From NCBI GenBank assembly GCA_937136395.1, contig CAKZOI010000104.1, forward strand, positions 1 through 64,000: a DNA stretch of 64,000 nucleotides, given 5' to 3'. This document shows, piece by piece, positions 3,155 through 25,139 of the stretch; the stretch's first letter is position 1; every line of letters begins with the position of its first letter. The DNA is from an uncultured Opitutia bacterium. GTDB lineage: Bacteria > Verrucomicrobiota > Verrucomicrobiia > Opitutales > Coraliomargaritaceae. Both the position numbers and the translations under genes were made by a program. Below the pieces are notes generated by a model, which saw nothing but the letters and a program-made list of their open reading frames with translations, was not told the origin of the DNA and made no database searches.

Positions 3155-3895
3155 CTACGAATAGAAAACTTTATCGAGAAATAACCCTCTAGCGGGAGCT
3201 GTGACGATGCGGTGTGTGCGTTCTTTGGAATCGATGATTTCGCGAATGTCTTCCGGTGTTAGGCGACCGCGGCCCACGGCGTAAAGAGCGCCAGTCATAC
3301 TGCGAACCATGCGGTAAAGGAAACCGCTGCCTTCGGTATCGATTCGGATGTGGTTTCCTTGTTTTTTGATGGCGACACGATGGACTGTTTTTACGGGGTT
3401 CGGGTCGGCATCTTTACCATGTGTCGCACTGAGTGCGGTGAAGTCTTGCGTGCCGACCATCTGTGCAGCAGCGGCCCGCATGGCCTCTAGGTCGAGGGGT
3501 AACTCGCGGCAATCCCAGACATAACGGGCATCGATTGGGTCGGGTCTGCCTAGGGTGATGCGATAGATATAACGTTTACCAGTCACTGAAAAACGAGCGT
3601 GAAAATCGTCGCTGACCTTCTTTAGCGATTTGATCTGAATGCTCTTTTCAAGATTCGCATGTAGCGCTCTAACGAGTTTTTTAGGTTCATGTTTCCAGTC
3701 GGCATCGAAATGGAAGCATTGCCCCCGTGCATGCACACCTGCGTCGGTGCGTCCACTACCTTGGATTTGTATGGGCGTGGCAAAGATCTGTGAAAGTGTT
3801 GCCTCTAAGTGATTTTGCACCGCGCTACCATTTGGTTGCCGCTGCCAGCCCTCAAAATCAGTGCCATCGTAGGCGCAGATACATTTCCATCGCAT
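3155..3895 (-). CDS. truA: tRNA pseudouridine(38-40) synthase
   Basis: Converts uridines 38, 39 and 40 of the tRNA anticodon arm to pseudouridine. The catalytic aspartate is in GRTDAGVHA (Asp at about residue 51 from the chosen start), and the C-terminal half contains [12 protein letters not shown], typical of TruA. The open frame extends upstream to 3982, but that part encodes translated heptad repeat with no family similarity. I therefore choose the ATG at 3895, giving [14 protein letters not shown] and about 246 aa. It is divergent from the TauE/SafE gene, with a paired repeat in the gap, and is followed by the comF-like gene. Confidence 0.93.
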
Positions 3896-22848: not shown

Positions 22849-24045
22849 CTAGTGCTGAATTTCGTAGGTCAGTGTCTTGCCTGCGTGCTGGATGGTGACG
22901 TGGTTTTGACCGTCATCGCGTTGCGTGGCTTCTGTGCGGCCGACGATTTGGGCGGGGATGCCGAAGGCCTCACTCTTGGCGATGATGTCTGCGGCGGCTT
23001 CTGGCTCACAGTAGATATCCATGCGGTGGCCCATGTTGTAGACGCGGAACATTTCCTCGTCGCTGGTGCCACTGGCTTTTTGGATCGCTTTAAAGATCGG
23101 TGGGATGGGAAGAAAGTTGTCCTTAATATGGTGCACGCCTGTGCCGAAACGAATACATTTGGTTTGGCCGCCGCCGGAGCAGTGCACCATGCCGTAGATT
23201 TGGTCGCGGTTCTCCGTAAGGAGTTGTTTGATAATGGGCGCGTAGGTGCGTGTGGGACTAAGAAGTGCGTCGCCGACGGTCATGTTGGAGTCGGGCAGGG
23301 GATCGCTCATTTTATAGGGACCGCAGTAAAGGTATTGTTTGTCGGTGGTGAGATCGACGGTTTCAGGGTATTTTTCGAGGTAGTAGGGGCTGAGCAAATC
23401 GTGACGAGCGCTAGTAAGGCCGTTGCTGCCGATTCCTGAGTTTTCGAAGGTTTCGTAAGTCGCTTGACCTGATGAGGCGAGCCCGACGATCATAAGACCT
23501 GGTTTGATATTTGCATTATCAACCACGTCTTTGCGATCCATCACGACGACGGCACAGGAATCGACGGTGACTGTGCCCGTGAGGTCACCTACGTCGGCAG
23601 TTTCGCCACCGCCGCTATGCACGCCGACTCCGTAGTCGCGAAGCGTGGCGAGGAAGTCTTCAGTGCCAGAAATCAGTTGGCCAAGTGCTTCTGCGGGGAT
23701 CGACCGCGCATTTCGGTTCACTGTGCTGGATATGAGAATGCCATTAATCGCGCCAACGCAGAGAAGGTCGTCGATATTCATCACGAGGCTATCTTGTGCG
23801 GTTTTGCGGAAGCCTGTTGGATCGCCGGTTTCTTTGTAATGAAGGTAGGCGAGTGTGCTCTTGGTGCCAGATCCGTCTGAGTGTATGATGTTACACTTGT
23901 CAGGGTTTCCTGTCAGTATGTCGGATCCGATTTTGCAGAATGCACCTGGGAAGACCCCGCGATCGAGCTTATCCACGACGGCGTGGACTTCGGATTTTGA
24001 AGAAGAAACGCCGCGTTGGGCGTAGCGATCAGTGGAATTGCTCAT
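22849..24045 (-). CDS. purM: Phosphoribosylformylglycinamidine cyclo-ligase, long Bacteroidetes-type
   Basis: ATP-dependent ring closure of FGAM to AIR in purine synthesis. 398 aa, longer than the usual 345-aa PurM but matching the Bacteroidetes/Verrucomicrobia variant that starts with [15 protein letters not shown]. Key segments are [43 protein letters not shown] and [13 protein letters not shown]. The AIR-synthase N and C domains are both present. Its leader contains the left copy of the 30-bp repeat bounding the GxxExxY element, 16 nt before the start codon. Confidence 0.92.
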
Positions 24046-24061: not shown

Positions 24062-24091
24062 AACCGTTAATGAACGTGAATGGACGTTAAT
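24062..24091. repeat. Left 30-bp terminal inverted repeat of the GxxExxY element
   Basis: Begins AACCGTTAATGAACGTG and ends GACGTTAAT. It is identical, as reverse complement, to 24469-24498 with no mismatch over 30 bp. In the mRNA sense of purM it can also be read as consecutive 7-bp words (TAACGTC, CATTCAC, GTTCATT, AACGGTT), the layout seen before other genes in this window. Confidence 0.9.
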
Positions 24092-24159
24092 TTATGACTA
24101 GGATGATGGGTGGTAGGTGACTTTGCGCCACTCTAATTTTGGATGTTTAAAATTTAAGA

Positions 24160-24480
24160 TCAGTCCCGTCGCTTTTTTGTGATTTTCAAGTAGTTGATGA
24201 TTTGGCCGATGTCATCGTTGTGAATGGCTTCGACCGCCTTAGTGTCTACTACTATTAGGTCATCGACTTCAAGGTCGGGAATGTATTCGTCGACTTTTAC
24301 ATCTCTGTATATGATGGGATATCTGCTTTGCTGGCTGTAGCGTATTCCTTGGTGTTGAAGTTCTACGATCAGAGCCCGTTCATATGTTTTTTCTCTTAGG
24401 CCGTGCCCGATTACGTTGTGCACTGTCATTGCGGCACCAACTACTTTAAAAACTAAATCGTCTATTTGATTAACGTCCAT
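24160..24480 (-). CDS. GxxExxY family protein (PD-(D/E)XK nuclease-like), C-terminus lost to a frameshift
   Basis: 106 aa in the uninterrupted frame. The name-giving motif is Gly27-x-x-Glu30-x-x-Tyr33 in GHGLREKTYE. A nuclease-like core follows: Pro68-Asp69 and Asp79-Thr-Lys81 (VVDTKAVE), matching the PD-(D/E)XK pattern of this family. The normal C-terminus is missing because the frame ends at KKRRD. In the -1 frame the expected family ending appears (GLILNFKHPKLEWRKV) and stops at 24098-24100. Adding one base to the six-base A-run (T6 at 24173-24178 on the plus strand) restores a full-length protein spanning 24098-24480. Function of the family is unknown. It lies between purM and plsC, enclosed by 30-bp inverted repeats. 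Confidence 0.8.
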   Translation of the reverse strand: MDVNQIDDLVFKVVGAAMTVHNVIGHGLREKTYERALIVELQHQGIRYSQQSRYPIIYRDVKVDEYIPDLEVDDLIVVDTKAVEAIHNDDIGQIINYLKITKKRRD

Positions 24481-24498
24481 TCACGTTCATTAACGGTT
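24469..24498. repeat. Right 30-bp terminal inverted repeat, containing the GxxExxY start codon
   Basis: Reverse complement of 24062-24091 with no mismatch. The ATG of the GxxExxY gene (24478-24480, minus strand) is inside it, so the repeat encodes the first residues (MDVN). The base at 24498 is also part of the plsC stop codon. Confidence 0.9.
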
Positions 24499-25139
24499 CA
24501 AATTATCGTTGTTTGCGGTGCTTTGAGTTTCGTGATGCGCTCCATGATTCGGCGGGAGGCTTCTAGGTAGCGCTCTGGGTGGTCTTTGCCCGGGTCGATC
24601 TCGGCGGTGGTCATCGGCTTACCGTAGGCGATGTGGATTTGGCCGCCAATTTTAGGGATTTTATCGTGGCGACTGAAGACTTCGTAGGTTCCAAAAAGTC
24701 GAGTCGGAATCACTGTGGCTTTGGATTTGCAGGCAATCATTCCTGCGCCGGCTTTGGGCTCCATGAGCTCACCAGTGTCCGAGCGGGTGCCTTCCGGGTA
24801 GATGGCAATCGCCCCCTTTTTTTTGAGTGCACGGAAAATTGCTTTCAGAGAGGCGACATCTGCATTTTCGCGGGCGACTGGAATCGCTTCGAGGCGATGG
24901 AGCGCTTTGCCTAGGGTTCCTTTGAAGAGAGAGTCACGTGCAAAGTAGTTGATATGGCGATGGACTTGGCAGCCGATTGCTGGAGGATCGAAAAAGCTGA
25001 TATGGTTTGCCGCGAAGATGACGCTGCCGTCGAGCGGAACGTTTGAGATTCCCGAGGTGCTAAAATTGTAGAATGTGCTGAAAAACCAATCAGAAGTAAT
25101 TCGGACGCCATTATAGAATGTCGGTATCTTTGGGTGCAT
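24498..25139 (-). CDS. plsC: 1-acyl-sn-glycerol-3-phosphate acyltransferase family protein
   Basis: Membrane-associated acyltransferase that makes phosphatidic acid from lysophosphatidic acid. The NHxxxxD motif is NHISFFDPP, and the second motif is IYPEGTRSDTGEL. 213 aa. It follows cmk by 7 bp, and cmk-plsC is a frequent operon pair, so the phospholipid role is likely, though acyl specificity is not visible. The stop codon coincides with the end of the GxxExxY element, so the element lies exactly at the 3' end of this operon. Confidence 0.9.
   Translation of the reverse strand: MHPKIPTFYNGVRITSDWFFSTFYNFSTSGISNVPLDGSVIFAANHISFFDPPAIGCQVHRHINYFARDSLFKGTLGKALHRLEAIPVARENADVASLKAIFRALKKKGAIAIYPEGTRSDTGELMEPKAGAGMIACKSKATVIPTRLFGTYEVFSRHDKIPKIGGQIHIAYGKPMTTAEIDPGKDHPERYLEASRRIMERITKLKAPQTTII

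Follow-up and report, generated by a model that had tools for sequence, protein, structure and literature searches.

GxxExxY genes between inverted arrays of short repeated units: a compact element at the plsC–purM junction of a Coraliomargaritaceae genome and its relatives

The element between plsC and purM

The window analysed here (the whole stretch of 64,000 nucleotides) carries, between plsC and purM, a compact element in which a small GxxExxY gene is enclosed by inverted repeats. Its parts and neighbours are as follows:

22849..24045, minus strand: purM, downstream neighbour (named in the first-pass annotation)
24062..24498, minus strand: the whole 437-bp element between plsC and purM, from arm match and junction comparison
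24062..24091, plus strand: downstream terminal arm, the exact reverse complement of the upstream arm
24098..24172, minus strand: C-terminal coding remnant in another frame (ending in ATGLILNFKHPKLEWRKVTYHPSS and a stop), from comparison with intact relatives
24160..24480, minus strand: GxxExxY ORF of 106 aa, shortened by a frameshift (TIGR04256 / PF13366, PD-(D/E)XK-like)
24173..24178, minus strand: A6 run where the ORF slips out of the frame used by intact relatives, from comparison with L079
24469..24498, minus strand: upstream terminal arm, reading AACCGTTAATGAACGTGAATGGACGTTAAT in gene sense
24498..25139, minus strand: plsC, upstream neighbour, whose TGA stop meets the element end (named in the first-pass annotation; synteny kept in most of 30 genomes)

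As the first-pass annotation had stated, the two arms are exact inverted repeats of 30 nt; they are 100% complementary and lie 377 nt apart, and the arm sequence is found at two sites in the window when up to three mismatches are allowed, against 0 in 100 dinucleotide shuffles. The upstream arm consists of three tandem 10-bp units (CGTTAATGAA CGTGAATGGA CGTTAAT). It supplies the ATG and first four codons (MDVN) of the GxxExxY ORF, and it begins with the base that closes the TGA stop codon of plsC; the earlier reading of a repeat that both encodes the start of the protein and meets the plsC stop holds. The genes cmk, plsC and purM form an operon-like array on one strand, and the GxxExxY gene, also on the minus strand, runs in the same direction as plsC and purM; the junction occupied by the element lies inside this array and not at an operon end, where insertion had been proposed. 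Elements of this kind have no visible room for a promoter of their own.

The window copy carries a frameshift, seen on comparison with intact relatives, and is probably dead. Beyond the A6 run another frame carries on as KKATGLILNFKHPKLEWRKVTYHPSS up to a stop, and the ORF is without the last ~24 residues of those relatives, the conserved N110 and F111 among them. A recent insertion in the window was considered and ruled out, as the junction is common to several genera and the copy is decaying.

The GxxExxY protein

The window ORF scores above the curated cut-off of TIGR04256 (101.9 bits, cut-off 35) and that of PF13366, PDDEXK_3 (99 bits, cut-off 22). Among 54 aligned relatives G27, E30 and K81 are invariant and Y33 and D69 nearly so, which upholds both the family and the motif residues named in the first-pass annotation; the most conserved residues of the family include G27, E30, D69, K81 and N110/F111. 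The structure predicted for an intact relative (L079; pLDDT 93.7, from input rows without plasmid-derived sequences) has its secondary-structure elements in the order expected for PD-(D/E)XK nucleases, and among PDB structures Foldseek places it nearest to lambda exonuclease, LHK-Exo, SSO0001, Cas4 and a Holliday-junction resolvase, although the E-values are modest (about 4e-3 to 4e-2); a sequence search of the PDB with the GxxExxY protein gave no match. By predicted fold and by the conserved E30, D69 and K81, the protein fits the PD-(D/E)XK superfamily and is a putative nuclease.

Family profile searches of the element matched GxxExxY and PDDEXK_3 only: no transposase was recognised, the protein being PDDEXK_3 and not a Y1/HUH (REP-associated tyrosine) transposase, and the window element holds no four-helix-bundle (S23p) ORF. 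PADLOC returned no defence match for the element, and membership of a defence system was dropped on that ground; a phage origin was likewise dropped, since PHROGs gave no match better than E=0.017, with only a distant halovirus hit. Among environmental bacteria GxxExxY proteins are common, being present in 71 of 145 sampled genomes of the window's phylum. In the literature searched, whose scope leaves out preprints and most subscription journals, no paper ties GxxExxY, TIGR04256 or PF13366 to repeats or gives the family a role, and within the same scope the arm sequences occur in no relevant context.

Repeated units, protein clades and gene-less arm pairs

Inverted repeats accompany GxxExxY genes generally. 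Within the window's GTDB family they flank about 50 of 72 such genes, standing above most mispaired flanks (n=212, maximum 18, median 9; for control windows inside the loci, n=133 and maximum 20). Of 73 further loci outside the family (69 spread over the phylum, four on plasmids), 58 pass the 2% threshold set by mispaired controls. Arms escape detection at about a fifth to a third of loci; among nine plasmid loci they are clear in four (Bacteroides, Bernardetia, Gemmatirosa, Sphingomonas) and not in five. Related genes devoid of flanking repeats would have spoken against the compact gene-plus-terminal-repeat unit first described in the window; that outcome did not arise, and the unit is now seen to recur; its alternative, duplicated leader sequences, fails to account for so general an association. 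Across 106 arm pairs the median element length is 468 bp and the internal periodicity of the arms peaks at 9–10 bp, a typical arm comprising about three tandem 9–10 bp units. Arms need not share a sequence even within one genome: the window's own genome holds two other GxxExxY genes with arms of other sequence (CTCACGCAAAGGCGCAGAGA at L001, GAGGCAGAATGATTTTACGGCAGAATAATT at L003). The consensus of the element end, TTT(T/G)AACC, itself contains TAA or TGA.

Some arrangements are more elaborate. At L077 and L080 the arms are oppositely oriented, with the array facing the other way, perhaps reflecting overlapping elements. In Coraliomargarita SDUM461004 and the MAG NP23 the inverted repeat of the plsC–purM element extends to about 51 bp, and further repeats of ~20 bp (GACTTGGAAATACGT...) lie beside the arms (L010:2798-2990, 3400-3527; also L012).

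In insertion sequences and MITEs a gene is framed by terminal inverted repeats, and there are also short pairs that are non-autonomous. GxxExxY elements resemble them in having a gene between terminal inverted repeats and short gene-less pairs, but differ in that they have no known transposase and no target-site duplication above chance (in 44 elements, direct repeats were equal to the mispaired control), and in that their ends are kept as repeated units. The classical transposase-plus-terminal-repeat model of the first-pass annotation is therefore unsupported, and the data are more like a homing or REPIN-type system.

Unit sequence varies from one protein clade to the next and mirrors the protein tree. 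Seven unit types, assigned by hand from the arms ahead of tree construction, require 6 changes on it, the minimum possible (shuffled mean 32; 0/200), and automatic labels across the phylum require 13 against 46.6 when shuffled (0/200); many elements of the same type sit at one junction, so shared ancestry of entire loci accounts for part of this match. Such tracking of protein clade by unit type would be predicted for a protein that recognises the ends of its own element. The earlier proposal of a nuclease-like protein tied to its own ends is accordingly borne out as regards anatomy and the match of unit to clade, and the mechanism that it implies is likely. Within elements the units also change in concert: in the leuB–alaS group (CRCRGAT/CRCGAAT) all six units of an element carry one and the same purine (CGC.. 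or CAC..), and which of the two is used varies from element to element. A joint change of six units is hard to explain unless a shared constraint or a copying process acts on them. This concerted change, and the presence of several unit types at the gatA–gatB junction, go further than the inheritance of entire loci.

What is kept in the arms bears on how the elements relate to RNA. The closest described anatomy is that of the intervening sequence (IVS) in Coxiella 23S rRNA, with 428 nt, a 28-bp terminal stem and one small S23p ORF (PMC4990558). It is like the window element in size (428 nt against 437 bp), in terminal inverted repeats of about 28–30 bp and in its single small ORF; it is called selfish and its ORF is decaying, and four-helix-bundle elements share the plsC–purM junction here. 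It differs in that the GxxExxY ORF encodes an unrelated PD-(D/E)XK protein, in that GxxExxY elements lie in protein operons and not in rRNA (the window copy between the cistrons plsC and purM), and in that their arms are repeated 9–10 bp units in which pairing is not kept at the spacers. An IVS-like RNA element, whose arms would pair in the operon mRNA and let RNase III remove the element, protecting the host, with mobility a separate matter, would suit both this anatomy and the operon-internal, co-directional placement. Arms are on the whole complementary, but mismatches across arm pairs have no G-U preference (41 G-U-compatible against 72 non-pairing transitions and 104 transversions), which suggests that the unit is conserved and not an RNA stem. 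Among CRCRGAT elements, two of the spacer positions agree between the arms in just 0–14% of cases although the units are conserved; six units changing jointly while spacers often stay unpaired points to unit recognition over an RNA stem. Neither G-U bias nor spacer pairing supports a stem as the conserved feature, and we consider the RNA reading quite improbable.

Arms also occur as inverted pairs with no gene between them. The window's own genome holds four further relatives of the arm within three mismatches, beyond the two window arms, and a looser arm motif finds 17 sites there (the two window arms included), compared with none for the reversed pattern. Gene-less pairs of CGTNAAT arms, measuring ~153 bp, are present in G000, G010, G018, G019 and G025, and pairs of CRCRGAT units, mostly of ~75–85 bp, in G010, G012, G015, G018, G021, G026 and G033; the reversed-pattern control for gene-less pairs gave no hit. 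In the pairs inspected, the AACC ends point outward. Outside gene elements, genomes in which only the CGTNAAT-type gene is present have 37 CGTNAAT against 9 CRCRGAT sites, those with only a CRCRGAT-type gene 9 against 31, and in eight of nine informative genomes the gene type matches the commoner dispersed unit. The link is not strict, as G018 and G012 hold copies without a detected gene of the type.

In these respects the elements are like REPIN-RAYT systems (PMC3116915), where inverted repeats flank a gene and recur genome-wide as gene-less inverted doublets at fixed spacing. The differences are that the GxxExxY enzyme has a PD-(D/E)XK fold and is not a Y1/HUH transposase, that its repeats number about ten to twenty copies rather than hundreds, and that its ends comprise three tandem units.

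Two features of the gene-less elements are recorded here in their own right. The sequence GCTTCGCCATCTACGGCAGACCTCCGTCA occurs six times in the window's own genome, always within the right-hand arm of a gene-less CGTNAAT element (e.g. G000:C21:172151-172179, C70:100028-100056), and a similar sequence lies upstream of plsC in G019 and also beside L066. A 193-bp gene-less arm pair flanked by two unrelated genes (L100:1922-2114, on G010:C42) has a left arm identical to the window arm, and no GxxExxY gene with such arms was found in G010.

The architecture is shared with a second kind of gene. In the same genomes, TIGR02436 four-helix-bundle genes (L120–L149) are flanked on both sides by inverted arrays whose units measure ~7 bp (TTAGAAG, TGATGAA, TCGGTGA), with 19 of 25 loci above the 5% level of a heavy-tailed control and a lag-7 autocorrelation of 0.38 against a background of ~0.29; these elements may be a parallel class that includes the 23S rRNA IVS. 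This architecture, then, is not unique to the nuclease-like protein, and since four-helix-bundle elements use the plsC–purM junction too, and one GxxExxY copy lies inside a different MITE, the protein might be a passenger: inverted unit arrays would be moved in trans by other machinery, with small genes of either kind riding along, possibly for some unrelated purpose, for instance defence or addiction. Against this, unit type and period are specific to protein family (9–10 bp versus 7 bp) and to clade, the element has room for no other gene, and the PADLOC search was negative, and we regard a passenger role as rather unlikely.

Junction turnover, homogenisation and the preferred reading

The elements lie within housekeeping operons, and at 88 of the 124 loci with both neighbours identified the gene is co-directional with both flanking genes. 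Junctions used recurrently are plsC–purM, leuB–alaS, gatA–gatB, rseP–ispG, metK–ahcY and guaA–carB, names that we assigned by reading the translated neighbours, and the Sphingomonas plasmid element lies, per annotation, at fabD–fabG. One junction may house different elements: gatA–gatB is occupied, depending on the genome, by elements of three unit types, whose proteins belong to different clades. In 13 of 84 cases, several of them from the plsC–purM lineage, an element end falls on the stop codon of an adjacent ORF, compared with about two at outward-shifted positions.

Relatives hold the plsC–purM junction with the unit, without it and with a decayed one. Across the genomes examined there are intact GxxExxY elements, broken ones and 3′ remnants, some genomes have a four-helix-bundle element instead, and the empty state consists of gaps of 16–92 bp; in G019 an element lies at cmk–plsC, where the relatives examined have none. 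The plsC–purM element is old and partly vertical, as it would be if GxxExxY were an ordinary conserved operon gene with immobile flanking repeats serving as regulatory hairpins or duplicated leaders. That account is very unlikely: decay, absence and replacement recur at plsC–purM, one junction hosts different element types, gene-less pairs are dispersed, and elements occur in many unrelated operons.

In close species the gene and its upstream arm are nearly identical while the flanks differ more, and third-position differences in the gene can be rarer than in the neighbouring genes at the same site by a factor of up to ten or more. The figures are 0/113 in the gene versus 204/786 (26%) in flanking ORFs for L043/L057, 1/117 versus 152/908 (16.7%) for L034/L035, and 3/112 versus 121/633 (19%) in plsC and purM for L083/L098, which are MAGs under different project names. 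The effect is smaller in other pairs, is not significant in the close pair L047/L075, and in four-helix-bundle elements is weak and not found in all pairs. Some constraint might in principle account for the low divergence at third positions, but distant pairs show the reverse pattern of gene and flanks, which makes a strong general constraint unlikely. A gene homogenised at a fixed site would be the trace left by homing or by gene conversion limited to the element.

Free-standing (intergenic) homing endonuclease genes are small nuclease genes at fixed intercistronic sites that pass through a cycle of occupied, decayed and empty states. GxxExxY elements resemble them in that a small gene of nuclease fold occupies fixed sites between the cistrons of conserved operons, in the occupied, decayed and empty states of those sites, and, for close pairs only, in homogenisation of the gene between species relative to its flanks. 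They differ in their terminal inverted repeats and dispersed arm pairs, and in the PD-(D/E)XK fold of the GxxExxY family, whose cutting is putative.

We therefore favour, at a probability of roughly 0.6, a reading of the window unit as a frameshifted member of a large, widespread family of elements of roughly 450 bp, selfish and homing- or REPIN-like, whose PD-(D/E)XK protein recognises its own ends. Direct support comes from the association of gene and repeats, the architecture, the match of unit to clade, the concerted units, the dispersed pairs, the placement, the turnover and the homogenisation. From these we infer unit recognition, cutting, mobility and arm-pair dispersal: the protein would bind the repeated units along a single face of the DNA, where roughly one unit falls in each helical turn, and nick or cut at bound units, whereupon repair or recombination would copy the element into unoccupied or diverged copies of the site, as in homing. 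More rarely, arm pairs would be dispersed to new places in a REPIN-like manner. Copies would persist by ending flush with the neighbour's stop codon inside operons, and then decay.

More tentatively, and with somewhat less than even confidence, GxxExxY elements might form a separate class of DNA element over several phyla, defined by a PD-(D/E)XK protein of ~125 residues, ends of tandem units spaced by the helical turn, a specificity that co-evolves with six units, homing into intercistronic sites of essential operons and dispersal of gene-less pairs, with four-helix-bundle elements, the 23S rRNA IVS being one case, as a parallel class of 7-bp units. A widespread element family suggests a role for GxxExxY proteins, which previously had none assigned, and the correspondence of protein clade to repeat unit turns a family of unassigned function into testable protein–DNA pairs and accounts for a class of odd dispersed repeats. 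It also suggests an architecture common to GxxExxY elements and the long-puzzling 23S rRNA intervening sequences. If true, the family would offer a small, nuclease-like protein in many natural specificities, each of which can be read off the neighbouring repeats, and so a rich system in which to study the evolution of DNA recognition.

Finally, one GxxExxY element sits within a larger repeat whose outer ends read TATACTG...CAGTATA. It occurs twice in one genome (L066 on G022:C16 and L088 on G022:C24) with 98.5% gene identity, the only near-identical pair of copies within a genome. This duplication was dropped as proof of transposition by the GxxExxY element, as the duplicated unit has other outer repeats; the outer repeat may be an apparent second MITE family carrying the element.
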